Of a stretch of DNA of 64,000 bases, positions 1,876 through 34,292 are shown one piece after another (position 1 is the stretch's first letter; the number at the start of each line of letters is the position of its first letter). The translations under genes were made by a program, and so were the position numbers. Source of the stretch: Henricia sp. BOLD:AAB3569 (Eukaryota > Echinodermata > Asteroidea > Spinulosida > Echinasteridae). The stretch covers positions 310,001 to 374,000 of the forward strand of contig JBBELK010000376.1 of assembly GCA_037783545.1 (NCBI GenBank), read 5' to 3'. Below the pieces are notes generated by a model. The model worked only from the letters and a program-made list of their open reading frames with translations. It searched no databases and was not told where the DNA came from.

Positions 1876-1895
1876 TCTTTGTGCCAACCCAAAGG
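1876..1895. repeat. 5' target-site duplication of LINE copy B
   Basis: tctttgtgccaacccaaagg, identical to 8905-8924 on the other side of the element. The base before it is c here and g at the 3' joint, which fixes the left limit; the base after it differs (t of the LINE, c of the unit), which fixes the right limit. Confidence 0.92.
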
Positions 1896-2120
1896 TCGTG
1901 TTTTACATCGAGCTCCGGGAATCGTAAGAAAACTTCGCTTTTGAGCGTATTATGGTTACAAATTTTATATCATTGTGACCGACATTATACACTGATTCTG
2001 CTGGACCGCCCTCGAATTGTCAGGTTTAGTAATTTTGGTGTATTTTGTAGTTAAAATATTGTATATTTCTTAGGTTTATTGCTATGGCTGACCATTAAGG
2101 TCAGTCAAGCGCAACCAGCC
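1896..2120 (+). other. 5' UTR of LINE copy B
   Basis: 225 bp from the target duplication to the ORF1 ATG. AT-rich in its second half. Presumably holds the internal promoter, as in other full-length LINEs; no motif is recognised with confidence. Ends with a tiny upstream ORF and hairpin at 2084-2107. Confidence 0.6.
2084..2098 (+). promoter_or_regulatory. Upstream ORF (MADH-stop) within a hairpin, copy B
   Basis: atg gct gac cat taa, 23 bases before the ORF1 ATG. It lies in an inverted repeat ggctgacc-attaa-ggtcagtc (8-bp stem with one G-T pair; perfect in copy C). Such a short uORF and hairpin could limit or redirect ribosomes reaching ORF1. Conserved in both full copies. Confidence 0.5.
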
Positions 2121-3845
2121 ATGCAGGGCCAGACAAGCAGTACCGCGTCTTGCTCTGCTGGCCCCATTGTTCCCGGTGACGAGCCCTTTCAAGGGGTCAC
2201 CAGGAACAATGGAGTGTTTTTCCATGCGGTCGACAATGTCTCCGTTCAGGATTACATGAACTCCTTTGCAGACCAACTACCACAACAATCTATTGTCTCC
2301 GCGTCAAGGATTTCCAATGGCAGAGTTGCTTTTTACTTAAGCTCGAGAACCGAAGTCATCGAGGCAGTCCACACAGGACTTGCCTACGATGGCGGCTTTA
2401 TCGAGCTAACACCACTCAATCGCCCTACTACCCGGCTAACGCTCTCAAACGTATACCCAGAAATCCCGAACGGAGTCATTGCGGCCCAACTATCATCCTT
2501 TTGTAAGGTGGTGTCGCAGATCCGTCCGATCCCCCTGGGAATTAAAAACAAGAAACAATTAAACATAATGAGCTTCCGACGACAGGTCCAGATCCTTCTT
2601 AATCCTAACATTAATCCCCCCGACCACATAAATTTTACATTTTCTGGAGCCAACTATCGTGTTTTCTTAACAACCGAGTCGGTTCGGTGTTTCAACTGCC
2701 GGGAGTTCGGGCACGTAAGCAAAAACTGCAAGAAACACCCTTCCAACCCTGAACATCAACCGGACCCCACCGTAGACAATCCTCTAAACCCACCACCCGT
2801 ATTCATGCACGGAAAAAACAAAAAATCTGACCCCAAACACCCACCCAAATCGTCTAAACCCAACAATCCCATCTCTTCTGCCACCGCCCCTCCCAAAGCA
2901 CCTCCACCCAAACCTCCCCGCGCGGCTGCGCCCGCCCCCGGCCCGTCTAACTACCCTGGTAGGAAAGGCGGGTCGGCCCCGGCTGGTGCCTCGAGCGCGA
3001 CCGGTGCTGCCAATTCTGCCGCACCGAAGTCGTCGTCCGTGGCCGATGCGGATGTAGCCAGCGGGGGCACAACCCCGTCCCAACCCTCCTCCTCCAGTTC
3101 AACGACAAATGAGAATGCGACAAACTTCGGCTCTCCCCCTGCTCCTCACAGAACATTTTCTGAAGTCTTGACTAAACGCAAGAACCCCCCACCCAAATCG
3201 CCCCCTGTTCCCTTCAAACTGACTCCCCTCAAATCTACCTCTCCTGTTCACAAAATGGCTAAGACAGCCATGAGCCCTAGTTCGTCACAATCTCCTTCTC
3301 TCTCCCAGGCCCTCGAGGCCCAGACACCGGTTTCTTCACCCGCTCCTTCTCCTCGTGTGGCCAATGCCCCTCCCATTCCAGCACAAACCACTCCAGTCCA
3401 TCCTACTCTAGCCCCACCCACCTCAGCCCCACCCACTTCAGCTCCATCAATTACCCCTGTTCCCGCCCCACCCACCTCCGCCCCCTCCACTGCCACTCCT
3501 GGTCCATCTGTTTCCTCTCCCATGCCTCTCTCACAGACTTCCGTACTTTCGACTCCCGGCGGTCAGAACACCGACACCGACTCTATGCAATGGGAGGATA
3601 CTCAGGCGGAAGATGATCTGACGTCTGATATCCTCCCTACATCCCGTGGCCCCATGTCGTCGGAAGATCTCATAAAATTTCTTGTCTCGGTGAAGGGTAA
3701 AAAAAAAACAGTCCAGTTTGCGAAGAAATTCACGTCTAACATCCCTGGACTGATAAAACAACTCAAACCTCTAAAAAACCACGCCCCTATCGGTAAGCCC
3801 ATGCAGAAGAGGATAGGTACACTCTTAAAATCTCTTGATCGTTAA
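2121..3845 (+). CDS. LINE ORF1, gag-like RNA-binding protein (copy B)
   Basis: 574 aa if translation starts at the ATG at 2121, the first in-frame ATG; the frame is open a little further upstream but only from TTG. Residues ~30-185 form a globular N-terminal region, probably RRM-like as in Tx1-type gag proteins (inference). One CCHC zinc knuckle follows, RCFNCREFGHVSKNC (C190-X2-C-X4-H-X4-C203). Residues ~210-510 are a Pro/Ser/Ala/Thr-rich linker with PPTSAP repeats. The C-terminus (~530-574) is basic, with KGKKKTVQFAKKF. ORF1 proteins of this group bind element RNA and form the RNP for retrotransposition. ORF2 starts 29 bp downstream in another frame. Confidence 0.92.
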   Translation: MQGQTSSTASCSAGPIVPGDEPFQGVTRNNGVFFHAVDNVSVQDYMNSFADQLPQQSIVSASRISNGRVAFYLSSRTEVIEAVHTGLAYDGGFIELTPLNRPTTRLTLSNVYPEIPNGVIAAQLSSFCKVVSQIRPIPLGIKNKKQLNIMSFRRQVQILLNPNINPPDHINFTFSGANYRVFLTTESVRCFNCREFGHVSKNCKKHPSNPEHQPDPTVDNPLNPPPVFMHGKNKKSDPKHPPKSSKPNNPISSATAPPKAPPPKPPRAAAPAPGPSNYPGRKGGSAPAGASSATGAANSAAPKSSSVADADVASGGTTPSQPSSSSSTTNENATNFGSPPAPHRTFSEVLTKRKNPPPKSPPVPFKLTPLKSTSPVHKMAKTAMSPSSSQSPSLSQALEAQTPVSSPAPSPRVANAPPIPAQTTPVHPTLAPPTSAPPTSAPSITPVPAPPTSAPSTATPGPSVSSPMPLSQTSVLSTPGGQNTDTDSMQWEDTQAEDDLTSDILPTSRGPMSSEDLIKFLVSVKGKKKTVQFAKKFTSNIPGLIKQLKPLKNHAPIGKPMQKRIGTLLKSLDR

Positions 3846-3874
3846 TATCACTGTCTTTTCTCATTTCCTTTAAT

Positions 3875-6800
3875 ATGGAGGTTTCTTTGCGTGTGTTTTT
3901 GGCCTGCGTCATGACATTGTCATTGCTCACTCTTAACACGGGGGGATGCCTATCCCCCATAAAAAATACTGCTCTCAAAATTTTCACTGATACCCTTGGT
4001 AATAGCCCTGATATTGTTTTCCTTCAAGAAACATATACTTTAAAAGAACAAAACTCGTGCTGGAACGTATGGTCCCACAGCCCCCACTGTTCTCCCGGGC
4101 CCACCCCCGGATCGGGAGTCACCACGCTCATAAAATCCAACAAAATTGATGTTCTCTCTCATTCTTCTATTTTCCCCGGTTATATTCATTACACTAAATT
4201 TAAATTTCAAGACACTGTTTTTCACCTCTACAATACTTTAATTCCACAAAATAACGATACTGCTCTTAAAGCCATTCAATCCTTTGTGGACCATAGTTCC
4301 AGCTGCAGTGACAATGTCATAATAGGAGGTGATTTCAATTGTTGTCTTAATCCTCTTGTTGATCGTCTGCGTACGTCGGTTGAGCGTAGACCCAAAGTCG
4401 TCATGGCTCTCAGGGGCGCTGTCAATGCATTGTCCCTTTGTGATGCCTGGCGCAGACTGAATCCCAACAAACAAGAGTTCACCTGGTTTCATAACTACCC
4501 AGCCTCTGTGCAGGGTGTTTATAAAGCCAGGTTAGATCGTGTTTACATTCCTTCCTCCTTATGCCCCTCGGTTAATTCTGTGTCTATTATTCCCTGTTCT
4601 CTCTCCGATCACAGTGCTGTCAGTATTGCGTTTACTTTCCCCTATCGAATTCAAAGAGGGAGTGCTTACTGGCATTTTAATAACTCTCTCTTAGATGATG
4701 ACAACTACAAAGACATTATAAACCACTTCTGGGCTGATTGGACAATGAAAAAAGGAGACTTTCCAGATCTAGCCTCGTGGTGGGACTTTGGAAAGTCCCA
4801 CATAAAGTCCATCACCCAGATGTATAGCAGTAAAATCGCTCGCCAAAAACGTCAAACACTCTTTCAACTTAACAAAAAAATCAACGATCTTCAGTCTGCG
4901 CCAGACTTCACTCTAGAAATAAGAGACGCTCTTAAGGAGCATAGGGACAATTTAAATTTTCTGTTAAAGTGTGAAGCGAAGGGCGCTCTTGTCAGATCCC
5001 GCTTCAAATTCACTAATGAAACTGACACCTGCTCCACATTCTTCTTCAACTTGGAAAAAAACAACTCTGCTTCTAAACACATCTCTAGAATTCGTCTTGC
5101 CACTGGGCAAATCACCGATAATCCTAAAGAAATCAAAACCCATATCCATGACTTTTACCAGTCCCTCTACACTTCTACTCCAACAGACGAGAGCGCCCTC
5201 GGCGAACTGTTAATTGGATTAAATCAACTTGACCCTGCAGACTCAGAGGACCTCGAGCGCCCTCTATCTCTGCAGGAACTCGACCTCGCCGTCAGGGAAC
5301 TTGGCAAAAACAAAACGCCCGGTCTTGACGGCCTCTCTTCAGAATTTTTTCAGTGCTTCTGGCCCACTCTCAAAAATGATTTTCTTGCCGTTCTCAACGC
5401 TTCCTTCTCCTCAGGTTCCCTTCCTCATTCCTTGAGACGTGCTGTCATCACCCTTTTGCCCAAGAAAGGTGACTTGGCCGATATTGCCAATTGGCGGCCC
5501 GTCTCCCTTTCAAACACTGACTACAAGATTTTTGCCAAGTTGCTTGCCGGCAGGTTAAAGCAATGCATTGGCAGCGTCGTCGGCCCGGACCAGACCTACT
5601 GTGTTCCGGGCCGATCAATATATGATAATTTAAATTTAATTCGGGATATTTTATTTTACTTTAATGCTAATGACTTGCCTTTAGCCGTGGTCAACCTTGA
5701 TCAGAAGAAAGCCTTTGATAACGTTGACCACGGCTACTTGTTTAACACAATGAGGGCCATGGGCTTTGGGGATCGTTTCATCCGACACATCGACATTTTG
5801 TACGGCAGCGCCGAGAGCCTTGTTAAGGTCGGTGGCTCCCTGACCTCTCCTTTCCCATTTGAGAAAGGAATAAGGCAGGGATGCCCGCTCTCGGGGCTGC
5901 TGTACTCAATTGCCATTGAACCACTCCTCAATAAACTTAGACTAAAACTTTCTCCCTATTCGTTTCATATTCCTGATACAAACTCATCTGTCTCTGTGTC
6001 GGCGTACGCAGACGACGTGTCTCTCTTTATCACCTCCGACGCAGGCTTTAACGTTGCTGAAGAGGTATATGACCTCTTTAGCAGCGCCTCTTCTGCATGT
6101 CTCAATACCCGGAAGTCCCAGGGATTGTGGGTCGGATCATGGACCGGACGGAAAGACAATCCTCTGGGTTTTTCTTGGAATAGCGAAGGACTTGCCTTTC
6201 TTGGAGTTCACCTTGGGAACACAAATAACTACATAAAACAAAACTGGATTAAATGCAAAGAAAAACTTAACAAAACTCTTAATTCCTGGTTTCACCGTCT
6301 TTACTCTCTTTCTTTCAAAGGGAAAGTTTTAATTGCTAATCAACTTGCCGCTTCAAAAATCTTCCACTGCATTGCTGTTCTTTCTCCTCCAGACAATGTT
6401 ATCCGTGAACTCCAAGAAAGTCTTGTCAATTTCGTCTGGTCCCGCAAGCAGCACCACCTTAAAAAGGAACTTTTGTATCAAAAACCTGACAATGGAGGGA
6501 TGGGTCTGGCACGCCTCCAGGCACGCATTATGACATTTCGACTTCGCACTATACAACGTTTTCTCGACCTCTCCCCCCATCCCAGTTTCCTACTCTTCCG
6601 CCATTTCTTAAGACAGTACAAGAAACTGGGTTATGATTTCCAACTTTTTCACTTCAACACTGATCCGAAATTCCACTCTCGCCTTCCCTGCTTCTACAGT
6701 GACATACTGCGTGCCTGGACGGCGTCCGGGGCTCGATTGGAAACGCGACCTGACAATATCAACCACGTCATTAATTTACCAATTGCTAGCCTACTTAATG

Positions 6801-7756
6801 ATGCAGCTGATGGTGACGCTATGCCTCCCCTGCGGCTCAAAGCGTGCGGTATTCTTCTCGTCCGCCATCTCATCGACTTTAACACCGCTCTCTGGATTGA
6901 CGCCCGGACCTTCCATTTCCCCCTCCAAGGACTCCGCCCACCCTCGCTTCGACTTCTTGAACAAGATCTTCACCGTATCCATCTGTCACTACTTCAGCAC
7001 TTCCCAACTGTCTTCTGCGTGAATGGATGTCGTCTTCCCGTTTCTCAACTCTGCGCTCTCGCACCATTTCCGGACACTCCCGTCAATTTTGTCTTCTCTT
7101 CAATACAAAATGGACTCTCCGCACCATCCAAAGTCATCTACAATATCTTCAACACTTCGTCTTCTCCGTTACTTTCACACTGGCATGAAAACGGCTTTCT
7201 GAATCCTGGAACTTCCATTCAATGGAAACAATTATATCACCTGCACTCAACAAAGAAAGAGGACGACGTACAGTTCAAGCTTTTTCACAACATCCTTCCA
7301 TCGCTTGCTGTACTAAGCCACATCATACCCGACAGATCTGCTTCCTGTGGATGGTGCGGAGAGCCGGGCTCAATCAAGCACCTATTCATCACCTGCCCAG
7401 CAATCCAGCCAACCCTCACAACTCTTCATCAGATGCTAAGTCGCCTTCTTCCTTCTACACAACTGAACTTTGACCTCTACTGGGCCCTCATCCCGCACGC
7501 GAAGAGTCGCAGCAAGGAGACAGTTCGATTGTCGAATTCTCTCATCATCAGCTGCAAAAACACCATCTATTTTCTCTACCGTACTTCTCGCTTCGTCGAC
7601 CCTCTCATCATCTGGAAACACAATCTCAAATTCAAAATTCTCATAAATTTCTCATTTTACAAATCAATCAACAATCTCCCTCGTTTTCACCAAAAATGGT
7701 CAATTAACAACGCAATCTTTGAATACAACAACGGTATGATGACGTGGTTGATATAA
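3875..7756 (+). CDS. LINE ORF2, endonuclease/reverse transcriptase (copy B)
   Basis: 1,293 aa. The N-terminal ~260 residues are an apurinic-endonuclease-type domain: LNTGG (N21), FLQETY (E52), GGDFNCCL (D153, N155), LDRVYIP and the SDHSAV signature (D245, H246); this domain nicks the target. Reverse transcriptase: NWRPVSL near 539, QTYCVPGRSIYDN, LDQKKAFDNVDH, GIRQGCPLSGLLYSIAIEPL, and the catalytic YADD at 711-714. A C-terminal zinc knuckle is C1158-X2-C-X7-H-X4-C1174 (CGWCGEPGSIKHLFITC). Start: ATG 3875; ATG 3911 (residue 13) just before the endonuclease is an alternative. Downstream of ORF1 on the same transcript, so reinitiation or termination coupling is likely. All catalytic residues I can check are present. 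Confidence 0.95.
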   Translation: MEVSLRVFLACVMTLSLLTLNTGGCLSPIKNTALKIFTDTLGNSPDIVFLQETYTLKEQNSCWNVWSHSPHCSPGPTPGSGVTTLIKSNKIDVLSHSSIFPGYIHYTKFKFQDTVFHLYNTLIPQNNDTALKAIQSFVDHSSSCSDNVIIGGDFNCCLNPLVDRLRTSVERRPKVVMALRGAVNALSLCDAWRRLNPNKQEFTWFHNYPASVQGVYKARLDRVYIPSSLCPSVNSVSIIPCSLSDHSAVSIAFTFPYRIQRGSAYWHFNNSLLDDDNYKDIINHFWADWTMKKGDFPDLASWWDFGKSHIKSITQMYSSKIARQKRQTLFQLNKKINDLQSAPDFTLEIRDALKEHRDNLNFLLKCEAKGALVRSRFKFTNETDTCSTFFFNLEKNNSASKHISRIRLATGQITDNPKEIKTHIHDFYQSLYTSTPTDESALGELLIGLNQLDPADSEDLERPLSLQELDLAVRELGKNKTPGLDGLSSEFFQCFWPTLKNDFLAVLNASFSSGSLPHSLRRAVITLLPKKGDLADIANWRPVSLSNTDYKIFAKLLAGRLKQCIGSVVGPDQTYCVPGRSIYDNLNLIRDILFYFNANDLPLAVVNLDQKKAFDNVDHGYLFNTMRAMGFGDRFIRHIDILYGSAESLVKVGGSLTSPFPFEKGIRQGCPLSGLLYSIAIEPLLNKLRLKLSPYSFHIPDTNSSVSVSAYADDVSLFITSDAGFNVAEEVYDLFSSASSACLNTRKSQGLWVGSWTGRKDNPLGFSWNSEGLAFLGVHLGNTNNYIKQNWIKCKEKLNKTLNSWFHRLYSLSFKGKVLIANQLAASKIFHCIAVLSPPDNVIRELQESLVNFVWSRKQHHLKKELLYQKPDNGGMGLARLQARIMTFRLRTIQRFLDLSPHPSFLLFRHFLRQYKKLGYDFQLFHFNTDPKFHSRLPCFYSDILRAWTASGARLETRPDNINHVINLPIASLLNDAADGDAMPPLRLKACGILLVRHLIDFNTALWIDARTFHFPLQGLRPPSLRLLEQDLHRIHLSLLQHFPTVFCVNGCRLPVSQLCALAPFPDTPVNFVFSSIQNGLSAPSKVIYNIFNTSSSPLLSHWHENGFLNPGTSIQWKQLYHLHSTKKEDDVQFKLFHNILPSLAVLSHIIPDRSASCGWCGEPGSIKHLFITCPAIQPTLTTLHQMLSRLLPSTQLNFDLYWALIPHAKSRSKETVRLSNSLIISCKNTIYFLYRTSRFVDPLIIWKHNLKFKILINFSFYKSINNLPRFHQKWSINNAIFEYNNGMMTWLI

Positions 7757-8904
7757 CTTTCATATTTCCCTGTGACTCTTCTTCGGCTCGTCTCCCGGAG
7801 CGTTTGCTCGCTTTTAGCGAGACAGGCTTTATGCCACGCTTCCGGGTTTCGAGCCATTCTGTCTTTTTTTTCATTTCCCCCCCCCCCCCTTTTTTGTCCT
7901 GGGATTTTGCGTCGGCTCTCTTGCCCCTGGATCGGCTGCTCGACTTGTCGAGACATGGTGTATACCTCCGGTCTGGATGTGGGTTTGCTGGCGTAAATCT
8001 TCTTGCTGGTGTCTAGATCGGCTGCTCGGCTTTTGTCGAGACATGGCAGTTGCCTCCGATCTGGGCACCGGCGTCCGCCCCAACCCCCGCTCTTTATTTT
8101 GTCTTTTTGTCTTTCTTTTTCTGTTGCGTCGGCTTGCCCGTCCCTAAATCGGCTGCTCGACTTGTCGAGACGTGGCGTATGCCTCCGGTATGGGGGCGGG
8201 CTTGCTGACGTGAATCTCCTTGCTAGTGTCCGGATCGGCTGCTCGGCTTTTGTCGAGACATGGCGTAGCCTCCGATCCGGGCATTGGTGATCCCCTCTCA
8301 GTCTTCACTCATGTTTCTCTTCTGTTTTTCTTTCTTCTTGTTTTTGTTTCATTCAATCTAAGTGACAACAACACGTCCCTCCTCCTACCCCCGTGGACGG
8401 AGGTCGCCACTTGCGGGCGCATTGCGCCCGCATGCTGTGGTTGGCGGCCCCTGCCTTCCCCACCCATTCCTCCCCGGATGGGTACTCCCCTTTTTTTCTT
8501 CTCTCCTTCTTTCTCTGTGTTGTTGTCAAGAATGTATCGTCTTTTTCTTCTTTGTAAGTGGAGCGCCACTTGTGTATGTTTAAATACGCCTTTGTTTCAT
8601 GATTTAACATGAACTATTTTGTTTTGTTGATCAGTTATTTTCTTATTTGTTTAAAAGTATATTCAAGTAACATAGTTTCCTATTTACTATCCCTAATGAG
8701 ACCTACAATGTGTTCAACTTATTATGTTACTTTACTAAATACCAAATCAATGATTCTGTTCACTAATATATCTATGTACTTATTTTGACTTATATTTTGC
8801 ATCTTTGTGTTAATATTATGTTTTCGTTTTTTACTTTGTAAATATTATTGTTATCATTACTGAAGATGCAATAAAGATGTCCTTTTGAAAAGTCAAAAAA
8901 AAAG
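7757..8904 (+). other. 3' UTR of LINE copy B
   Basis: Four hairpin modules (7939-7952, 8025-8040, 8156-8169, 8242-8257), each CTCGR...YCGAG followed by cgagac(a/g)tgg. The third is absent from copies A and C. GC inverted repeat with 10-bp arms at 8412-8421 and 8423-8432. Then ~450 bp AT-rich, AATAAA at 8870-8875, and the end aaaagtc-aaaaaaaaag. Such 3' UTR structure is a candidate for recognition by the element's own reverse transcriptase. Confidence 0.75.
8870..8875 (+). promoter_or_regulatory. Polyadenylation signal of LINE copy B
   Basis: aataaa in gatgcaataaagatg, about 30 bases before the element's 3' joint; present at the same place in copies A and C. Confidence 0.7.
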
Positions 8905-8924
8905 TCTTTGTGCCAACCCAAAGG
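8905..8924. repeat. 3' target-site duplication of LINE copy B
   Basis: Same 20 bases as 1876-1895; intact unit sequence continues from 8925. Confidence 0.92.
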
Positions 8925-8961
8925 CGGCCTCGTTGGGAAGTATTCGCTCCTGTTTCAGAGA

Positions 8962-8978
8962 GAACGAAAAAAAGAAAA
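8962..8978 (-). terminator. Pol III T-run after SRP RNA (example, unit 2)
   Basis: On the minus strand the SRP RNA is followed by TTTT, C, then TTTTTTT. Pol III stops at runs of four or more T. The same run follows the SRP RNA in every unit; one T shorter in units 16 and 26, and interrupted in units 36, 42 and 57. Confidence 0.7.
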
Positions 8979-9279
8979 GAGTTGGGTCTCACCGTATTGT
9001 CTGGGTTGCGAGTAGACTACTGTTCTCGAGTGCGGTCCCGCTGCTGATCCACACGGGGACTTTTGTCTGCTGCGTTTCCGCCCTGGACCGGTTCGCCCCT
9101 CCTCAGTCAAACCTGGTCACCCCGGCCTTCGCCAGATTGACCATGCCGATGCCGAGCTCAGCGTGGACACCCGATCGTCACAGTAGAAACAAACCCACAT
9201 AGACTCCCGAACTCATGCGATCCGCCAACCCCGGCTTCCAAAGTGGCTGGATTACAGGCGCACGCCACAACGCCCAGCC
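8979..9279 (-). ncRNA. SRP RNA (7SL), unit 2 (reference description)
   Basis: About 301 nt, the usual animal length. RNA core of the signal recognition particle, which pauses translation and docks secretory ribosomes at the ER. Minus strand, 5' to 3': Alu-domain start GGCTGGGCG with the CCTGTAATCC turn; the stretch CGATCGGGTGTCC and CTCGGCAT as in human 7SL; GGGGTGACCAGGTTTG; the helix 6 loop region TGAGGAGGGGCGAACCGG; helix 8 GGGCGGAAACGCAGCAG with a GAAA loop closed by GCG/CGC (human has a weaker closing pair); AAAGTCCCCGTG and GCTGATCC-like 3' strand; terminal GGTGAGACCC, then T-run. The 3' end is placed at the last base before TTTT. Plus-strand change in this unit: caccgtatt for caccttatt. 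Confidence 0.95.
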
Positions 9280-9290
9280 AATGAGCAGTT

Positions 9291-9301
9291 GAAAATAAAT
9301 T
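9291..9301 (-). promoter_or_regulatory. TATA-like element upstream of SRP RNA (example, unit 2)
   Basis: Minus strand ATTTATTTTC lies ~12-22 bases before the SRP RNA 5' end and is kept in nearly all units. Animal 7SL genes use upstream as well as internal pol III elements; the role here is an inference. Confidence 0.3.
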
Positions 9302-9333
9302 CTCATGAACTTTTCTCAAAAACCTCACCCGAC

Positions 9334-9343
9334 AAAAAAAAAA
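9334..9343 (-). terminator. Pol III T-run after tRNA-like gene (example, unit 2)
   Basis: Ten T on the minus strand, ~25 bases past the tRNA-like 3' end and ~55 bases before the SRP RNA. The run is the most length-variable part of the unit (about 6-14 A on the plus strand, often broken by g, c or t), so read-through into SRP RNA may differ between units. Confidence 0.55.
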
Positions 9344-9368
9344 GAATACCCTTTAACAAATCACAAAC

Positions 9369-9449
9369 CGTCGTGGGCAGGATTCGAACCTACGCGGGAC
9401 ATCCCATTGGATTTTAAGTCCAACTTCTTAACCACTCGGCCACCGCGAC
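9369..9449 (-). tRNA. tRNA-Leu(UAA)-like, unit 2 (type C, reference description)
   Basis: 81 nt, type II tRNA. Acceptor GTCGCGG/CCACGAC pairs except position 5-68 (C-A). Anticodon arm TTGGA-CTTAAAA-TCCAA, anticodon TAA (Leu), very like animal tRNA-Leu(UAA). The long variable arm has GGG/CCC. T arm GTAGG-TTCGAAT-CCTGC pairs fully. A box TGGCCGAGTGG and B box GGTTCGAATCC are intact. The D stem is broken (GCC against GAA, two of three pairs lost) in this and all other copies, so tRNA function is doubtful. It lies 89 bp upstream of the SRP RNA in the same direction and may serve as its pol III promoter element. Confidence 0.65.
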
Positions 9450-9684
9450 CTTCGATAAAACAAGTCAGTGGCAGCATCAACACTAGTTTACAAGACTGCA
9501 ATATCAGTAATGATTCCAACGATGACAAATAAAATATCGTCCCCAACAGTGGCCAATCTTTATGCTTGTTAGGTTATAAAGCTCAGCCAAGACCATCTTT
9601 ACAGCTGCGCTCTTTGTGCCAACCCAAAGGCGGCCTCGTTGGGAAGTATTCGCTCCTGTTTCAGAGAGAACGAAAAAAAGAAAA

Positions 9685-9985
9685 GAGTTGGGTCTCACCT
9701 TATTGTCTGGGTTGCGAGTAGACTACTGTTCTCGAGTGCGGTCCCGCTGCTGATCCACACGGGGACTTTTGTCTGCTGCGTTTCCGCCCTGGACCGGTTC
9801 TCCCCTCCTCAGTCAAACCTGGTCACCCCGGCCTTCGCCAGATTGACCATGCCGATGCCGAGCTCAGCGTGGACACCCGATCGTCACAGTAGAAACAAAC
9901 CCACATAGACTCCCGAACTCATGCGATCCGCCAACCCCGGCTTCCAAAGTGGCTGGATTACAGGCGCACGCCACAACGCCCAGCC
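9685..9985 (-). ncRNA. SRP RNA (7SL), unit 3
   Basis: Plus-strand ggttctcccc for ggttcgcccc, in the helix 6 region; shared only with unit 4. Confidence 0.92.
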
Positions 9986-10075
9986 AATGAACAGTTGAAA
10001 ATAAATTATCATGAACTTTTCTCAAAAACCTCGCCCGACAAAAAAGAAAAGAATACCCTTTAACAAATCACAAGC

Positions 10076-10156
10076 CGTCGTGGGCAGGATTCGAACCTAC
10101 GCGGGACATCCCATTGGATTTTAAGTCCAACTTCTTAACCACTCGGCCACCGCGAC
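10076..10156 (-). tRNA. tRNA-Leu(UAA)-like, unit 3
   Basis: Type C: B box and T stem intact, D stem broken. Confidence 0.6.
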
Positions 10157-10391
10157 CTTCGATAAAACAAGTCAGTGGCAGCATCAACACTAGTTTACAA
10201 GACTGCAATATCAGTAATGATTCCAACGATGACAAATAAAATATCGTCCCCAACAGTGGCCAATCTTTATGCTTGTTAGGTTATAAAGCTCAGCCAAGAC
10301 CATCTTTACAGCTGCGCTCTTTGTGCCAACCCAAAGGCGGCCTCGTTGGGAAGTATTCGCTCCTGTTTCAGAGAGAACGAAAAAAAGAAAA

Positions 10392-10692
10392 GAGTTGGGT
10401 CTCACCTTATTGTCTGGGTTGCGAGTAGACTACTGTTCTCGAGTGCGGTCCCGCTGCTGATCCACACGGGGACTTTTGTCTGCTGCGTTTCCGCCCTGGA
10501 CCGGTTCTCCCCTCCTCAGTCAAACCTGGTCACCCCGGCCTTCGCCAGATTGACCATGCCGATGCCGAGCTCAGCGTGGACACCCGATCGTCACAGTAGA
10601 AACAAACCCACATAGACTCCCGAACTCATGCGATCCGCCAACCCCGGCTTCCAAAGTGGCTGGATTACAGGCGCACGCCACAACGCCCAGCC
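10392..10692 (-). ncRNA. SRP RNA (7SL), unit 4
   Basis: Same ggttctcccc change as unit 3, showing that the two are recent duplicates. Confidence 0.92.
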
Positions 10693-10782
10693 AATGAGCA
10701 GTTGAAAATAAATTATCATGAACTTTTCTCAAAAACCTCGCCCGACAAAAAAGAAAAGAATACCCTTTAACAAATCACAAAC

Positions 10783-10863
10783 CGTCGTGGGCAGGATTCG
10801 AACTTACGCGGGACATCCCATTGGATTTTAAGTCCAACTTCTTAACCACTCGGCCACCGCGAC
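10783..10863 (-). tRNA. tRNA-Leu(UAA)-like, unit 4
   Basis: Type T in a unit whose left flank (aaaaacctcgcc) is of the C kind: a chimeric unit. Confidence 0.5.
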
Positions 10864-11098
10864 CTTCGATAAAACAAGTCAGTGGCAGCATCAACACTCG
10901 TTTACAAGACTGCAATATCAGTAATGATTCCAACGATGACAAATACAATATCGTCCCCAACAGTGGCCAAACTTTATGCTTGTTAGGTTATAAAGCTCAG
11001 CCAAGACTATCTTTACAGCTGCGCTCTTTGTGCCAACCCAAAGGCGGCCTCGTTGGGAAGTATTCGCTCCTGTTTCAGAGAGAACGAAAAAAAGAAAA

Positions 11099-25225: not shown

Positions 25226-25526
25226 GAGTTGGGTCTCACCTTATTGTCTGGGTTGCGAGTAGACTACTGTTCTCGAGTGCGGTCCCGCCGCTGATCCACA
25301 CGGGGACTTTTGTCTGCTGCGTTTCCGCCCTGGACCGGTTCGCCCCTCCTCAGTCAAACCTGGTCACCCCGGCCTTCGCCAGATTGACCATGCCGATGCC
25401 GAGCTCAGCGTGGACACCCGATCGTCACAGTAGAAACAAACCCACATAGACTCCCGAACTCATGCGATCCGCCAACCCCGGTTTCCAAAGTGGCTGGATT
25501 ACAGGCGCACGCCACAACGCCCAGCC
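25226..25526 (-). ncRNA. SRP RNA (7SL), unit 25
   Basis: cccgccgctg as in unit 15; cccggtttcc private. Confidence 0.92.
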
Positions 25527-25615
25527 AATGAGCAGTTGAAAATAAATTCTCATGAACTTTTCTCAAAAACCTCACCCGACAAAAAAAAAAGAATACCCTT
25601 TAACAAATCACAAAC

Positions 25616-25696
25616 CGTCGTGGGCAGGATTTGAACCTACGCGGGACATCCCATTGGATTTTAAGTCCAACTTCTTAACCACTCGGCCACCGCGAC
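25616..25696 (-). tRNA. tRNA-Leu(UAA)-like, unit 25
   Basis: Type C at the first B-box base, but B box GGTTCAAATCC has lost the central G. Confidence 0.5.
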
Positions 25697-25930
25697 CTTC
25701 GATAAAACAAGTCAGTGGCAGCATCAACACTAGTTTACAAGACTGCAATATCAGTAATTATTCCAACGATGACAAATAAAATATCGTCCCCAACAGTGGC
25801 CAATCTTTATGTTTGTTAGGTTATAAAGCTCAGCCAAGACCATCTTTACAGCTGCGCTCTTTGTGCCAACCCAAAGGCGGCCTCGTTGGGAAGTATTCGC
25901 TCCTGTTTCAGAGAGAACGAAAAAAGAAAA

Positions 25931-26231
25931 GAGTTGGGTCTCACCTTATTGTCTGGGTTGCGAGTAGACTACTGTTCTCGAGTGCGGTCCCGCTGCTGAT
26001 CCACACGGGGACTTTTGTCTGCTGCGTTTCCGCCCTGGACCGGTTCGCCCCTCCTCAGTCAAACCTGGTCACCCCGGCCTTCGCCAGATTGACCATGCCG
26101 ATGCCGAGCTCAGCGTGGACACCCGATCGTCACAGTAGAAACAAACCCACATAGACTCCCGAACTCATGCGATCCGCCAACCCCGGCTTCCAAAGTGGCT
26201 GGATTACAGGCGCACACCACAACGCCCAGCC
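25931..26231 (-). ncRNA. SRP RNA (7SL), unit 26
   Basis: gcgcacacc and short T-run as in unit 16. Confidence 0.92.
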
Positions 26232-26321
26232 AATGAGCAGTTGAAAATAAATTATCATGAACTTTTCTCAAAAACCTCGCCCGACAAAAAAAAAAAGAAT
26301 ACCCTTTAACAAATCACAAAC

Positions 26322-26402
26322 CGTCGTGGGCAGGATTCGAACTTACGCGGGACATCCCATTGGATTTTAAGTCCAACTTCTTAACCACTCGGCCACCGCG
26401 AC
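26322..26402 (-). tRNA. tRNA-Leu(UAA)-like, unit 26
   Basis: Type T inside C-type flanks (aaaaacctcgcc, caatcttt): chimeric. Confidence 0.5.
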
Positions 26403-26637
26403 CTTCGATAAAACAAGTCAGTGGCAGCATCAACACTAGTTTACAAGACTGCAATATCAGTAATGATTCCAACGATGACAAATAAAATATCGTCCCCAAC
26501 AGTGGCCAATCTTTATGCTTGTTAGGTTATAAAGCTCAGCCAAGACCACGTTTACAGCTGCGCTCTTTGTGCCAACCCAAAGGCGGCCTCGTTGGGAAGT
26601 ATTCGCTCCTGTTTCAGAGAGAACGAAAAAAAGAAAA

Positions 26638-26938
26638 GAGTTGGGTCTCACCTTATTGTCTGGGTTGCGAGTAGACTACTGTTCTCGAGTGCGGTCCCGC
26701 TGCTGATCCACACGGGGACTTTTGTCTGCTGCGTTTCCGCCCTGGACCGGTTCGCCCCTCCTCAGTCAAACCTGGTCACCCCGGCCTTCGCCAGATTGAC
26801 CATGCCGATGCCGAGCTCAGCGTGGACACCCGATCGTCACAGTAGAAACAAACCCACATAGACTCCCGAACTCATGCGATCCGCCAACCCCGGCTTCCAA
26901 AGTGGCTGGATTACAGGCGCACGCCACAACGCCCAGCC
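26638..26938 (-). ncRNA. SRP RNA (7SL), unit 27
   Basis: Common form; last unit before LINE copy C. Confidence 0.92.
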
Positions 26939-27027
26939 AATGAGCAGTTGAAAATAAATTCTCATGAACTTTTCTCAAATACCTCACCCGACAAAAAAAA
27001 TAAAATACCCGTTAACAAATCACAAAC

Positions 27028-27108
27028 CGTCGTGGGCAGGATTCGAACTTACGCGGGACATCCCATTGAATTTTAAGTCCAACTTCTTAACCACTCGGCC
27101 ACCGCGAC
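27028..27108 (-). tRNA. tRNA-Leu(UAA)-like, unit 27
   Basis: Type T; anticodon stem has TTCAA, giving a G-T pair. A private 3-bp insertion (cagtacctaatg) lies 60 bp upstream of it. Confidence 0.45.
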
Positions 27109-27273
27109 CTTCGATAAACCAAGTCAGTGGCAGCATCAACACTAGTTTACAAGACTGCAATATCAGTACCTAATGATTCCAACGATGACAAATAAAATAT
27201 CGTCCCCAACAGTGGCCAAACTTTATGCTTGTTAGGTTATAAAGCTCAGCCAAGGCCATCTTTACAGCTGCGC

Positions 27274-27293
27274 TCTTTGTGCCAACCCAAAGG
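27274..27293. repeat. 5' target-site duplication of LINE copy C
   Basis: tctttgtgccaacccaaagg, identical to 34273-34292 and to the duplication of copy B. Confidence 0.92.
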
Positions 27294-27518
27294 TCGTGTT
27301 TTACATCGAGCTCCGGGAATCGTAAGAAAACTTCGTTTTTGAGCGTATTATGGTCACAAATGTTATATCATTGTGACCGACATTATACACTGATTCTGCT
27401 GGACCGCCCTCGAATTGTCAGGTTTAGTAATTTTGGTGTATTTTGTAGTTAAAATATTGTATATTTCTTAGGTTTATTGCTATGGCTGACCATTAAGGTC
27501 AGCCAAGCGCAACCAGCC
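27294..27518 (+). other. 5' UTR of LINE copy C
   Basis: 225 bp, almost identical to copy B (small changes such as cttcgtttttg for cttcgcttttg). Full-length 5' end at the same base as B. Confidence 0.6.
27482..27496 (+). promoter_or_regulatory. Upstream ORF (MADH-stop) within a hairpin, copy C
   Basis: Same 4-codon uORF as copy B. Here the inverted repeat ggctgacc-attaa-ggtcagcc is a perfect 8-bp stem. Confidence 0.5.
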
Positions 27519-29249
27519 ATGCAGGGCCAGACAAGCAGTACCGCGTCTTGCTCTGCTGGCCCCATTGTTCCCGGTGACGAGCCCTTTCAAGGGGTCACCA
27601 GGAACAATGGAGTGTTTTTCCATGCGGTCGACAATGTCTCCGTTCAGGATTACATGAACTCCTTTGCAGACCAACTACCACAACAATCTATTGTCTCCGC
27701 GTCAAGGATTTATAATGGCAGAATTGCTTTTTACTTAAGCTCGAGAACAGAAGTCATCGAGGCAGTCCACACAGGACTCGCCTACGATGGCGGCTTTATC
27801 GAGCTTACACCACTCAATCGCCCTACTACCCGGCTAACACTCTCAAACGTATACCCAGAAATCCCGAACGGAGTCATTGCGGCCCAACTATCATCCTTTT
27901 GCAAGGTGGTGTCGCAGATCCGTCCGATCCCCCTGGGAATTAAAAACAAGAAACAATTAAACATAATGAGCTTCCGACGACAGGTCCAGATCCTTCTTAA
28001 TCCTAACATTAATCCCCCCGACCACATAAATTTTACATTTTCTGGAGCCAACTATCGTGTTTTCCTAACAACTGAGTCGGTTCGGTGTTTCCTCTGCCGG
28101 GAGTTCGGGCACGTAAGCAAAAACTGCAAGAAACAGCCTTCCAACCCTGAAAAACAACCGGACCCCACCGTAGACAATCCTCTAAACCCACCACCCGTAT
28201 TCATGCACGAAAAAAACAAAAAATCTGACCCCAAACACCCACCCAAATCGTCTAAACCCAACAATCCCATCTCTTCTGCCACCACCCCTCCCAAAGCACC
28301 CCCACCCAAACCTCCCCGCGCGGCTGCGCCCGCCCCCGGCCCGTCTAACCACCCAGGTAGGAAAGGCGGGTCAGCCCCGGCTTGTGCCTCGGGAGCGACC
28401 GGTGCTGCCAATTCTGGCGCACCGAACTCGTCGTCCGGCTCCGTGGCCGATGCGGGTGTAACCCGCGGGGTCACAACCCCGTCCCAACCCTCCTCCTCCA
28501 GTTCAACGACAAATGAGAATGTGACAAACTTCGGCTCTCCCCCTGCTCCTCACAGAACATTTTCTGAAGTCTTGACTAAACGCAAGAACCCCCCACCCAA
28601 ATCGCCCCCTGTTCCCTTCAAACTGACTTCCCTCAAATCTACCTCTCCTGTTCACAAAATGGCTAAGACAGCCATGAGCCCTAGTTCGTCACAACCTCCT
28701 TCTCTCTCCCAGGCCCTCGAGGCCCAGACACCGGTTTCTTCACCCGCTCCTTCTCCTCGTGTGGCCAATGCCCCTCCCATTCCAGCACAACCCACTCCAG
28801 TCCATCCTACTCTAGCCCCACCCACCTCAGCCCCACCCACTTCAGCTCCATCAATTACCCCTGTTCCCGCCCCACCCACCTCCGCCCCCTCCACTGACAC
28901 TCCTGGTCCATCTGTTTCCTCTCCCATGCCTCTCTCACAGACTTCCGTACTTTCGACTCCCGGCGGTCAGAACACCGACACCGACTCTATGCAATGGGAG
29001 GATACTCAGGCGGAAGATGATCTGACGTCTGATATCCTCCCTACATCCCGTGGCCCCCTGTCGTCGGAAGATCTCATAAAATTTCTTGTCTTGGTGAAGG
29101 GTAAAAAAAAAACAGTCCAGTTTGCAAAGAAATTCACGTCTAACATCCCTGGACTGGTAAAACAACTCAAACCTCTAAAAAACCACGCCCCTATCGGTAA
29201 GCCCATGCAGAAGAGGATAGGTACACTCTTAAAATCTCTTGATCGTTAA
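27519..29249 (+). CDS. LINE ORF1, gag-like RNA-binding protein (copy C)
   Basis: 576 aa from the ATG at 27519. Same layout as copy B. The CCHC knuckle is kept (RCFLCREFGHVSKNC, residues 190-203) with a harmless N-to-L change inside. Most differences from copy B fall in the Pro/Ser/Ala-rich linker, including two extra residues there (NSSSGSVADAG region). No stop or frameshift. Confidence 0.92.
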   Translation: MQGQTSSTASCSAGPIVPGDEPFQGVTRNNGVFFHAVDNVSVQDYMNSFADQLPQQSIVSASRIYNGRIAFYLSSRTEVIEAVHTGLAYDGGFIELTPLNRPTTRLTLSNVYPEIPNGVIAAQLSSFCKVVSQIRPIPLGIKNKKQLNIMSFRRQVQILLNPNINPPDHINFTFSGANYRVFLTTESVRCFLCREFGHVSKNCKKQPSNPEKQPDPTVDNPLNPPPVFMHEKNKKSDPKHPPKSSKPNNPISSATTPPKAPPPKPPRAAAPAPGPSNHPGRKGGSAPACASGATGAANSGAPNSSSGSVADAGVTRGVTTPSQPSSSSSTTNENVTNFGSPPAPHRTFSEVLTKRKNPPPKSPPVPFKLTSLKSTSPVHKMAKTAMSPSSSQPPSLSQALEAQTPVSSPAPSPRVANAPPIPAQPTPVHPTLAPPTSAPPTSAPSITPVPAPPTSAPSTDTPGPSVSSPMPLSQTSVLSTPGGQNTDTDSMQWEDTQAEDDLTSDILPTSRGPLSSEDLIKFLVLVKGKKKTVQFAKKFTSNIPGLVKQLKPLKNHAPIGKPMQKRIGTLLKSLDR

Positions 29250-29278
29250 TATCACTGTCTTTTCTCATTTCCTTTAAT

Positions 29279-32200
29279 ATGGAGGTTTCTTTGCGTGTGT
29301 TTTTGGCCTGCGTCATGACATTGTCATTGCTCACTCTTAACACGGGGGGATGCCTATCCCCCATAAAAAATACTGCTCTCAACATTTTCACTGATACCCT
29401 TGGTAATAGCCCTGATATTGTTTTCCTTCAAGAAACATATACTTTAAAAGAACAAAACTCGTGCTGGAACGTATGGTCCCACAGCCCCCACTGTTCTCCC
29501 GGGCCCACCCCCGGATCGGGAGTCACCACGCTCATAAAATCCAACAAAATTGATGTTCTCTCTCATTCTTCTATTTTCCCCGGTTATATTCATTACACTA
29601 AATTTAAATTTCAAGATACTGTTTTTCACCTCTACAATACTTTAATTCCACAAAATAACGATACTGCTCTTAAAGCCATTCAATCCTTTGTGGACCATAG
29701 TTCCAGCTGCAGTGACAATGTCATAATAGGAGGTGATTTCAATTGTTGTCTTAATCCTCTTGTTGATCGTCTGCGTACGTTGGTTGAGCGTAGACCCAAA
29801 GTCGTCATGGCTCTCAGGGGCGCTGTCAATGCATTGTCCCTTTGTGATGCCTGGCGCAGACTGAATCCCAACAAACAAGAGTTCACCTGGTTTCATAACT
29901 ACCCAGCCTCTGTGCAGGGTGTTTATAAAGCCAGGTTAGATCGTGTTTACATTCCTTCCTCCTTATGCCCCTCGGTTAATTCTGTGTCTATTATTCCCTG
30001 TTCTCTCTCCGATCACAGTGCTGTCAGTATTGCGTTTACTTTCCCCTCTCGAATTCAAAGAGGGAGTGCTTACTGGCATTTTAATAACTCTCTCTTAGAT
30101 GATGACAACTACAAAGACATTATAAACCACTTCTGGGCTGATTGGACAATTAAAAAAGGAGACTTTCCAGATCTAGCCTCGTGGTGGGACTTTGGAAAGT
30201 CCCACATAAAGTCCATCACCCAGATGTATAGCAGTAAAATCGCTCGCCAAAAACGTCAAACACTCTTTCAACTTAACAAAAAAATAAACGATCTTCAGTC
30301 TGCGCCAGACTTCACTTTAGAAATAAGAAACGCTCTTAAGGGGCATAGGGACAATTTAAATTTTCTGTTAAAGTGTGAAGCGGAGGGCGCTCTTGTCAGA
30401 TCCCGCTTCAAATTCACTAATGAAACTGACACCTGCTCCACATTCTTCTTCAACTTGGAAAAAAACAACTCTGCTTCTAAACACATCTCTAGAATTCGTC
30501 TTGCCACTGGGCAAATCACCGATAATCCTAAAGAAATCAAAACCCATATCCATGACTTTTACCAGTCCCTCTACACTTCTACTCCAACAGACAAGAGCGC
30601 CCTCGGCGAACTGTTAATTGGACTAAATCAACTTGACCCTGCAGACTCAGAGGACCTCGAGCGCCCTCTATCTCTGCAGGAACTCGACCTCGCCGTCAGG
30701 GAACTTGGCAAAAACAAAACGCCCGGTCTTGACGGCCTCTCTTCAGAATTTTTTCAGTGCTTCTGGCCCACTCTCAAAAATGATTTTCTTGCCGTTCTCA
30801 ACGCTTCCTTCTCCTCAGGTTCCCTTCCTCATTCCTTGAGACGTGCTGTCATCACCCTTTTGCCCAAGAAAGGTGACTTGGCCGATATTGCCAATTGGCG
30901 GCCCGTCTCCCTTTCAAACACTGACTACAAGATTTTTGCCAAGTTGCTTGCCGGCAGGTTAAAGCAATGCATTGGCAGCGTCGTCGGCCCCGACCAGACC
31001 TACTGTGTCCCGGGCCGATCAATATATGATAATTTAAATTTAATTCGGGATATTTTATTTTACTTTAATGCTAATGACTTGCCTTTAGCCGTGGTCAACC
31101 TTGATCAGAAGAAAGCCTTTGATAACGTTGACCACGGCTACTTGTTTAACACAATGAGGGCCATGGGCTTTGGGGATCGTTTCATCCGACACATCGACAT
31201 TTTGTACGGCAGCGCCGAGAGCCTTGTTAAGGTCGGTGGCTCCCTGACCTCTCCTTTCCCATTTGAGAAAGGAATAAGGCAGGGATGCCCGCTCTCGGGG
31301 CTGCTGTACTCAATCGCCATTAAACCACTCATCAATAAACTTAGACTAAAACTTTCTCCCTATTCGTTTCATATTCCTGATACAAACTCATCTGTCTCTG
31401 TGTCGGCGTACGCAGACGACGTGTCTCTCTTTATCAACTCCGACGCAGGCTTTAACGTTGCTGAAGAGGTATATGACCTCTTTAGCAGCGCCTCTTCTGC
31501 ATGTCTCAATACCCGGAAGTCCCAGGGATTGTGGGTCGGATCCTGGACCGGACGGAAAGACAATCCTCTGGGTTTTTCTTGGAATAGCGAAGGACTTGCC
31601 TTTCTTGGAGTTCACCTTGGGAACACAAATAACTACATAAAACAAAACTGGATTAAATGCAAAGAAAAACTTAACAAAACTCTTAATTCCTGGTTTCACC
31701 GTCTTTACTCTCTTTCTTTCAAAGGAAAAGTTTTAATTGCTAATCAACTTGCCGCTTCAAAAATCTTCCACTGCATTGCTGTTCTTTCTCCTCCAGACAA
31801 TGTTATCCGTGAACTCCAAGAAAGTCTTGTCAATTTCGTCTGGTCCCGCAAGCAGCACCACCTTAAAAAGGAACTTTTGTATCAAAAACCTGACAATGGA
31901 GGGATGGGTCTGGCACGCCTCCAGGCACGCATTATGACATTTCGACTTCGCACTATACAACGTTTTCTCGACCTCTCCCCCCATCCCAGTTTCCTACTCT
32001 TCCGCCATTTCTTAAGACAGTACAAGAAACTGGGTTATGATTTCCAACTTTTTCACTTCAACACTGATCCGAAATTTCACTCTCGCCTTCCCTGCTTCTA
32101 CAGTGACATACTGCGTGCCTGGACGGCGTCCGGGGCTCGATTGGAAACGCGACCTGACAATATCAACCACGTCATTAATTTACCAATTGCTAGCCTACTT

Positions 32201-33160
32201 AATGATGCAGCTGATGGTGACGCTATGCCCCCCCTGCGGCTCAAAGCGTGCGGTATTCTTCTCGTCCGCCATCTCATCGACTTTAACACCGCTCTCTGGA
32301 TTGACGCCCGGACCTTCCATTTCCCCCTCCAAGGACTCCGCCCACCCTCGCTTCGTCTTCTTGAACAAGATCTTCACCGTATCCATCTGTCACTACTTCA
32401 GCACTTCCCAACTGTCTTCTGCGTTAATGGATGTCGTCTTCCCGTTTCTCAACTCTGCGCTCTCCCACCATTTCCGGACACTCCCGTCAATTTTGTCTTC
32501 TCTTCAATACAAAATGGACTCTCCGCACCATCCAAAGTCATCTACAATATCTTCAACACTTCGTCTTCTCCGTTATCTTCACACTGGCATGAAAACGGCT
32601 TTCTGAATCCTGGAACTTCCATTCAATGGAAACAATTATATCACCTGCACTCAACAAAGAAAGAGGACGACGTACAGTTCAAGCTTTTTCACAACATCCT
32701 TCCATCGCTTGCTGTACTAAGTCACATCATACTCGACAGATCTGCTTCCTGTGGATGGTGCGGAGAGCCGGGCTCAATCAAGCACCTATTCATCACCTGC
32801 CCAGCAATCCAGCCAATCCTCACAACTCTTCATCAGATGCTAAGTCGCCTTCTTCCTTCTACAGAACTGAACTTTGACCTCTACTGGGCCCTCATCCCGC
32901 ACGCGAAGAGTCGCAGCAAGGAGACCGTTCGATTGTCGAATTCTCTCATCATCAGCTGCAAAAACACCATCTATTTTCTCTACCGTACTTCTCGCTTCGT
33001 CGACCCTCTCATCATCTGGAAACACAATCTCAAATTCAAAATTCTCATAAATTTGTCATTTTACAAATCAATCAACAATCTCCCTCGTTTTCACAAAAAA
33101 TGGTCAATTAACAACGCAATCTTTGAATACAACAACGGTATGATGACGTGGTTGATATAA
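29279..33160 (+). CDS. LINE ORF2, endonuclease/reverse transcriptase (copy C)
   Basis: 1,293 aa, no stop or frameshift; endonuclease residues, YADD (711-714) and C-terminal zinc knuckle as in copy B. One notable change: residue 682 is K in GLLYSIAIKPL where copy B has E. An acidic residue at this place is strongly conserved in L1/Tx1-group reverse transcriptases, so this copy may be weaker or dead despite its open frame. Starts 29 bp after the ORF1 stop. Confidence 0.94.
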   Translation: MEVSLRVFLACVMTLSLLTLNTGGCLSPIKNTALNIFTDTLGNSPDIVFLQETYTLKEQNSCWNVWSHSPHCSPGPTPGSGVTTLIKSNKIDVLSHSSIFPGYIHYTKFKFQDTVFHLYNTLIPQNNDTALKAIQSFVDHSSSCSDNVIIGGDFNCCLNPLVDRLRTLVERRPKVVMALRGAVNALSLCDAWRRLNPNKQEFTWFHNYPASVQGVYKARLDRVYIPSSLCPSVNSVSIIPCSLSDHSAVSIAFTFPSRIQRGSAYWHFNNSLLDDDNYKDIINHFWADWTIKKGDFPDLASWWDFGKSHIKSITQMYSSKIARQKRQTLFQLNKKINDLQSAPDFTLEIRNALKGHRDNLNFLLKCEAEGALVRSRFKFTNETDTCSTFFFNLEKNNSASKHISRIRLATGQITDNPKEIKTHIHDFYQSLYTSTPTDKSALGELLIGLNQLDPADSEDLERPLSLQELDLAVRELGKNKTPGLDGLSSEFFQCFWPTLKNDFLAVLNASFSSGSLPHSLRRAVITLLPKKGDLADIANWRPVSLSNTDYKIFAKLLAGRLKQCIGSVVGPDQTYCVPGRSIYDNLNLIRDILFYFNANDLPLAVVNLDQKKAFDNVDHGYLFNTMRAMGFGDRFIRHIDILYGSAESLVKVGGSLTSPFPFEKGIRQGCPLSGLLYSIAIKPLINKLRLKLSPYSFHIPDTNSSVSVSAYADDVSLFINSDAGFNVAEEVYDLFSSASSACLNTRKSQGLWVGSWTGRKDNPLGFSWNSEGLAFLGVHLGNTNNYIKQNWIKCKEKLNKTLNSWFHRLYSLSFKGKVLIANQLAASKIFHCIAVLSPPDNVIRELQESLVNFVWSRKQHHLKKELLYQKPDNGGMGLARLQARIMTFRLRTIQRFLDLSPHPSFLLFRHFLRQYKKLGYDFQLFHFNTDPKFHSRLPCFYSDILRAWTASGARLETRPDNINHVINLPIASLLNDAADGDAMPPLRLKACGILLVRHLIDFNTALWIDARTFHFPLQGLRPPSLRLLEQDLHRIHLSLLQHFPTVFCVNGCRLPVSQLCALPPFPDTPVNFVFSSIQNGLSAPSKVIYNIFNTSSSPLSSHWHENGFLNPGTSIQWKQLYHLHSTKKEDDVQFKLFHNILPSLAVLSHIILDRSASCGWCGEPGSIKHLFITCPAIQPILTTLHQMLSRLLPSTELNFDLYWALIPHAKSRSKETVRLSNSLIISCKNTIYFLYRTSRFVDPLIIWKHNLKFKILINLSFYKSINNLPRFHKKWSINNAIFEYNNGMMTWLI

Positions 33161-34272
33161 CTTTCATATTTCCCTGTGACTCTTCTTCGGCTCGTCTGCC
33201 GGAGCGTTTGCTCGCTTTTAGCGAGACAGGCTGTATGCCACGCTTTCCGGGTTTCGAGCCATTCTGTCTTTTTTGTTCATTTCACCCCCTTTTTTGTCCT
33301 TGGATTTTGCGTCGGCTCTCTTGCCCCTGGATCGGCTGCTCGACTTGTCGAGACATGGTGTATACCTCTGGTCTGGATGTGGGTTTGCTGGCGTAAATCT
33401 TCTTGCTGGTGTCTAGATCGGCTGCTCGGCTTTTGTCGAGACATGGCAGTTGCCTCCGATCTGGGCACCGGCGTCCGCCCCAACCCCCGCTCTTTATTTT
33501 GTCTTTTTGTCTTTCTTTTTATGTTGCGTCGGCTTGCCCGTCCCTCCGGTGTGGGGGCGGGCTTGCTGACGTGAATCTCCTTGCTAGTGTCCGGATCGGC
33601 TGCTCGGCTTTTGTCGAGACATGGCGTAGCCTCCGGTCCGGGCATTGGTGATCCCCTCTCAGTCTTCACTCATGTTTCTCTTCTGTTTTCTTTCTTCTTG
33701 TTTTTGTCTAATCCAATCTAAGTGACAACAACACGTCCCTCCTCCTACCCCCGTGGACGGAGGTCGCCACATGCGGGCGCATTGCGCCCGCATGCTGTGG
33801 TTGGCGGCCCCTGGCCTTTCCCACCCATTCCTCCCCGGATGGGTACCCCCTTTTTTTCTTCTCTCCTTCTTTCTCTGTGTTGTTGTCAAGAATGTATCAT
33901 CTTTTTTCTTCTTTGTAAGTGGAGCGCCACTTGTGTATGTTTAAATACGCCTTTGTTTCATGATTTAACATGTATTATGAACTATTTTGTTTTGTTGATC
34001 AGTTATTTTCTTATTTGTTTAAAAGTATATTCAAGTAACATAGTTTCCTATTTACTATCCCTAATGAGACCTACAATGTGTTCAACTTATTATGTTACTT
34101 TACTAAATACCAAATCAATGATTCTGTTCACTAATATATCTATGTACTTATTTTGACTTAGATTTTGCATCTTTGTGTTAATATTATGTTTTCGTTTTTT
34201 ACTTTGTAAATATTATTGTTATCATTACTGAAGATGCAATAAAGATGTCCTTTTGAAAAGTCAAAAAAAAAG
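33161..34272 (+). other. 3' UTR of LINE copy C
   Basis: Three hairpin modules (33339-33352, 33425-33440, 33603-33618). The GC inverted repeat is longer than in A and B: 12-bp perfect arms 33770-33781 and 33783-33794 around one T. AATAAA near 34238, end aaaagtc-aaaaaaaaag as in copy B. Confidence 0.75.
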
Positions 34273-34292
34273 TCTTTGTGCCAACCCAAAGG
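34273..34292. repeat. 3' target-site duplication of LINE copy C
   Basis: Pairs with 27274-27293; intact unit sequence follows. Confidence 0.92.

Follow-up and report, generated by a model that had tools for sequence, protein, structure and literature searches.

A tandem array of SRP RNA and tRNA-Leu genes

Most of the window, by which we mean the whole analyzed stretch of 64,000 nucleotides, is taken up by a tandem array with a unit of about 706 bp. In the order of transcription a unit consists of a tRNA-Leu gene with anticodon TAA, 90 bp, an SRP RNA gene, 51 bp, a 20-bp sequence that is the target of the LINE described below, 161 bp and the next tRNA-Leu gene. Rfam detected 65 Metazoa SRP RNA genes in the window (RF00017), all on the minus strand and with scores of 208–222 bits. 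ARAGORN called 64 tRNA-Leu(TAA) genes, on the strand that also carries the SRP RNA genes, and Rfam found 65 tRNA genes, one of them partial. This discrepancy is due to the unit at 50515–51205, in which the tRNA-Leu gene lacks 16 bp. The array itself had been recognized in an earlier note on this DNA; the gene labeled there as tRNA-like is a tRNA-Leu(TAA) gene.

1171–61070, minus strand: tandem array of ~706-bp units, delimited by RF00017 matches, tRNA-Leu calls and their spacing, interrupted by LINE copies B and C
8976–9278, minus strand: SRP RNA gene, one example of 65 (RF00017, 217.7 bits)
9369–9449, minus strand: tRNA-Leu(TAA) gene, one example (ARAGORN; RF00005, 46.3 bits)

Units differ from one another at a mean of 10.9 positions per ~706 bp. 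In the unit left of copy C the last spacer measures 165 bp rather than 161 bp because of a 4-bp insertion. No match to U2 or 5S RNA was obtained within the window at Rfam gathering scores. When about two units (8905–10400) were searched with Rfam at E values up to 1, the matches comprised SRP RNA, tRNA, a sub-threshold mir-1268 inside the SRP RNA gene and one chance match. None of them lies at the target, so a further RNA gene at this position was rejected.

The array ends near position 61,070 and is followed by unrelated sequence. Between 61070 and 64000 this leads toward a minus-strand pol of the Gypsy type with reverse transcriptase, RNase H and integrase; it may be part of an LTR element that inserted into the array. 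Next to the pol region, at 61418–61472, a short sequence of about 21 bp (TTGTGACTGAGTGACTAAAA) is repeated in tandem.

Three LINE copies occupy the same base of the unit

Three copies of a LINE, designated A, B and C, are joined to the array.

1–1170, plus strand: LINE copy A, truncated by the window edge to its 3' part
1171–1190, plus strand: 3' target copy of A
1876–1895, plus strand: 5' target duplication of B
1896–8904, plus strand: LINE copy B, full length, 7009 bp
8905–8924, plus strand: 3' target duplication of B
9611–9630, plus strand: empty target site, one example of 62
27274–27293, plus strand: 5' target duplication of C
27294–34272, plus strand: LINE copy C, full length, 6979 bp
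34273–34292, plus strand: 3' target duplication of C

Copies B and C begin with the same base (tcgtgttttac...) after one copy of the target, and A, B and C all end with the same base before another target copy, in a single orientation. The 20-bp duplications flanking B and C are identical. Both central observations of the earlier note, three copies at exactly one base in one orientation (3/3) and a common 20-bp duplication in B and C, are therefore borne out. Its interval of 1876–34292 holds B and C, while A lies to the left of it.

The target 20-mer TCTTTGTGCCAACCCAAAGG occurs exactly 65 times, always on the plus strand and never on the other. A scan of the plus strand with up to four mismatches gave 67 occurrences, with two variants at 17383 and 58970. 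Of these, 62 are empty and five border on LINEs: one at A (1171), two at B (1876 and 8905) and two at C (27274 and 34273). Three of 65 sites are therefore occupied. With the three copies masked, a BLASTN search of the window with LINE B as query returned no match at an E value of 0.01, though only about 2.9 kb of the sequence searched lie outside the array. Together with the 62 empty targets this agrees with the earlier statement that the array contains no other LINE. If insertion were random with respect to position and orientation within a 706-bp unit, the probability that two more copies match the first would be about 5e-7.

The LINEs are inserted in the spacer, 51 bp beyond the 3' end of the SRP RNA gene and 161 bp ahead of the tRNA gene, so that neither RNA gene is broken; an insertion inside an RNA gene was considered and rejected on these measurements. 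The LINE is antisense to both genes. Its 5' end faces the 5' end of the tRNA-Leu gene at a distance of 181 bp, and its 3' end faces that of the SRP RNA gene.

Coding capacity and divergence of the LINE copies

Two open reading frames are present and open in B as well as in C.

2121–3845, plus strand: ORF1 of B, 574 aa counted from the first in-frame ATG, CCHC pattern
3875–7756, plus strand: ORF2 of B, 1293 aa, APE-type endonuclease (PF03372, 18–246) and reverse transcriptase (PF00078, 529–780)
27519–29249, plus strand: ORF1 of C, 576 aa, CCHC pattern, no Pfam match at 0.001
29279–33160, plus strand: ORF2 of C, 1293 aa

The Pfam domains of ORF2 are Exo_endo_phos and RVT_1, and the motifs QET, GDFN, RLDR, SDHSA and YADD were all found in ORF2 of B. 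For ORF1 a CCHC match is reported by Pfam in B only, although the pattern itself is present in both copies.

As the earlier note had it, B and C are full-length copies separated by many substitutions and indels. We counted 98 substitutions in 6963 positions (1.4%) and nine indels; some of the substitutions that cluster within the homopolymer stretch of the 3' UTR could be artifacts of alignment. Eight of the indels fall into the 3' UTR, one of 6 bp into ORF1 and none into ORF2. A differs from C by 12 substitutions in 1170 positions with like indel states except for the A-run, and from B by 17 in 1160 with nine indels; A and C are the closest pair. Between B and C dN/dS is 0.37 for ORF2, a value as low as this being reached in 2.2% of simulations, and 0.66 for ORF1, which is not significant (23% of simulations). 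The ORF2 differences between B and C are thus biased against amino-acid change.

Repeated hairpins in the 3' UTR

The 3' UTR contains a series of hairpins with three-way junctions.

7785–8290, plus strand: five three-way-junction hairpins in the 3' UTR of B, at 7785–7855, 7909–7995, 8005–8072, 8124–8213 and 8220–8290
33189–33651, plus strand: the same hairpins in C, four intact, the fourth without its core

Folding of positions 7757–8380 of B gave -233.7 kcal/mol compared to a mean of -182.1 kcal/mol in 20 shuffles (z -8.3). Taken singly and compared with 200 simple shuffles each, the five hairpins reached z scores of -6.5, -1.8, -7.0, -5.1 and -5.7. In an alignment of the five copies, in which the first is off by one base in part, the common pairing holds in 94.2% of cells against 28–48% when it is slid. 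Three pairs are changed on both sides and the covariation score was reached in 9 of 500 shuffles, five copies being few for such a comparison. The fourth copy seems dispensable since its core is deleted in C. It may be guessed that these hairpins are recognized by the ORF2 protein.

Relationship to Tx1-type LINEs

In the protein search with ORF2, the 7977 candidates with the most words in common were scored, giving 398 matches. Among the best 120 of these the top five are 63–66% identical to the query, and TX1 of Xenopus (P0072), with 39% identity over the searched part, ranks highest of those that are named as known transposons. The best relative with a solved structure is human L1 ORF2p. Over the reverse transcriptase region identity amounts to 43.8% with TX1 and 27.5% with human L1. 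A reverse transcriptase tree was built from 29 rows (20 of alignment A1, eight further matches among the best 120 of 398, and human L1). It groups the window pair with P0001, P0003, P0004 and P0006 (support 92/82, not starred), the sole outgroup being the long-branched L1, which makes the root unsure. No relative was found among viral contigs by ORF2, by the target 20-mer or by alignment A1.

With APE-type endonuclease and reverse transcriptase in ORF2 and CCHC in ORF1 the LINE has a Tx1-type layout, which is not exclusive to Tx1; the layout of ORF2 is shared with TX1 of Xenopus laevis. The target of TX1 is another transposon, in which the window LINE differs. The Tx1 assignment of the earlier note agrees with TX1 as best named match. 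Placement in the clade draws on this similarity and on a tree in which a single L1 with a long branch serves as outgroup, and we treat it as provisional.

A probably site-specific LINE and its possible mode of insertion

In our view this LINE is a site-specific non-LTR retrotransposon of the Tx1 kind, intact in appearance and recently active, with one base in the spacer of the SRP RNA/tRNA-Leu unit as its site; we assign this reading a probability of roughly 0.82. The data given above support a two-ORF LINE of the APE type whose insertion point and strand within the unit are constant, as is its 20-bp duplication. The placement of a distant relative in a U2 snRNA gene (L001, see below) and the precedent of Dewa for the target also speak for this reading.

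A possible course of insertion can be drawn from the junctions. The APE-type endonuclease of ORF2 would nick the bottom strand at 5'-CAAAGA^GCGCAG-3', and the freed 3' end would prime reverse transcription of the LINE RNA. Priming might be aided by the structured 3' UTR and by a two-base overlap at the LINE 3' end: the LINE ends with ...AAAAGTC(A)nG and the target starts with TC, two bases that may belong to both and could help annealing. Cleavage of the top strand 20 nt away would then yield the 20-bp duplication. This geometry appears to fit target-primed reverse transcription. An element inserted in this way would come to lie antisense to both RNA genes and leave both of them whole.

It could be argued that the LINE has no strict specificity and inserts widely in the genome, the array merely retaining those copies that reached one tolerated spot. 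The spacer is indeed a harmless place. However, 65 sites offer many other harmless spacer positions in both orientations, yet all three copies are found at one base and on one strand, and we regard this reading as very improbable. A stronger version of site specificity, in which the family is strictly confined to one base of the SRP RNA/tRNA-Leu unit, between two essential Pol III genes, and the three-way-junction modules of its 3' UTR are read by its own ORF2 protein, is tentative and in our estimate falls slightly short of even odds. Placed between two small-RNA genes without breaking either and with its ORFs open, the LINE is a good subject for studying how an APE-type endonuclease chooses its base. 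Site-specific LINEs are also natural tools for putting DNA at a harmless repeated site.

Separate insertions or copying with the array

The fixed position of A, B and C would reduce to a single event if one insertion had been copied by unequal crossing-over or gene conversion within the array. The divergence between B and C (1.4%) is about that of typical units, as would also be expected under array copying, and since the LINEs are about as divergent as the units, age alone cannot decide. Block duplications do occur, for example of u13850–u15265 with u20208–u21621. Copy C sits at a boundary of array types, with 24 of 31 common unit variants found on one side only (variants present in at least three units, counted without alignment columns 425–450, which hold the A-run and its neighbors); recombination through LINE copies is therefore possible. 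Furthermore, u1171 to the right of A differs from u34273 to the right of C at only eight positions, near the minimum of seven observed for u1171, and the flanks of the LINEs could have been replaced later by exchange within the array.

The flanks nevertheless speak for separate events. Those of B and C show 13 differences on the left and 8 on the right, have no private variant in common and are closer to LINE-free units than to each other, the nearest being u21621 for u1171 (7 differences), u11025 for u8905 (2), and u13144 for both u26564 (4) and u34273 (3). Likewise, u1171 and u34273 share no non-consensus variant, and the A-run of A differs. The three units left of C (u25152–u26564) have a paralogous block ten units upstream, u18090–u19502, which ends in an empty target; the two blocks differ at 14 positions, tied for the sixth and seventh lowest value of 231 block pairs. 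Finally, the low dN/dS of ORF2 and its freedom from indels point to function between the copies. Flank variants, the paralogous empty block and ORF2 dN/dS thus favor, though not decisively, the earlier view that A, B and C do not go back to one insertion copied with the array. Judged from the sequence, separate insertions appear to be the better explanation and copying of a single insertion an unlikely one. With the SRP RNA genes arranged in tandem with tRNA-Leu, the turnover of the array and the insertion of LINEs can each serve to date the other.

The stretches 8905–27273 and 34273–61070 carry different common variants on either side of C, and the left part shows block duplications at a distance of 9–10 units.

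Comparison with known target-specific elements

Site-specific LINEs are known, and the SRP RNA/tRNA-Leu unit is an unusual home for one. Dewa, Keno and Mutsu are assigned to the Tx1 clade. According to PMC3706591, which cites Kojima & Fujiwara 2004, the target of the zebrafish LINE Dewa is a tRNA-Leu spacer, and the earlier supposition that the target here had not been described does not hold to that extent. The likeness to Dewa lies in insertion into a tRNA-Leu spacer; here the site is 161 bp from tRNA-Leu and 51 bp from SRP RNA. Other LINEs in tRNA genes are listed in PMC4640811 for the NeSL/LIN group (NeSL-1_TV, LIN15_SM, LIN25_SM), and given these and Dewa a LINE in a tRNA-Leu spacer is of a known kind. 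The NeSL/LIN elements resemble the window LINE in having tRNA genes as target, but as characterized there they use a restriction-like endonuclease and insert inside the tRNA genes, in contrast to the APE-type endonuclease and spacer site found here. A search of the open-licence PMC literature turned up no LINE described from an SRP/7SL array or an SRP RNA/tRNA-Leu unit.

The Tx1 clade is counted among the target-specific lineages in PMC4640811. Keno is located in U2 snRNA genes (PMC3706591, PMC4640811) and Mutsu in 5S rRNA genes (PMC3706591). Like the window LINE they keep to a single site of a small-RNA gene that is present in many copies, but their targets as given there lie inside the RNA gene and not in a spacer. 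The niche of multicopy small-RNA genes is also used by Dada DNA transposons, which according to PMC3706591 include Dada-tL in tRNA-Leu; these differ from the window LINE in being DNA transposons that insert inside the tRNA gene with short duplications.

Among 61 candidate genome-contig stretches one, L001 (5340 bp), encodes an ORF2 relative. Its title names a MAG from a Taylorina sp. symbiont, but it is probably an animal contaminant contig in a bacterial MAG. Within L001:11–3600 the ORF2 part is only 32% identical to that of the window, and the tail, ...AACAAAAAAAA, is similar to that of the window LINE. It is followed by GTATCTGTTCTTATCAG, which we take to be an inner part of U2 snRNA; Rfam matched U2 after the LINE tail with 129.9 bits, and a further U2 gene seems to begin at the end of the contig. 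From its sequence L001 looks like a Keno-type insertion. Its 3' UTR is also strongly folded (z -7.0).
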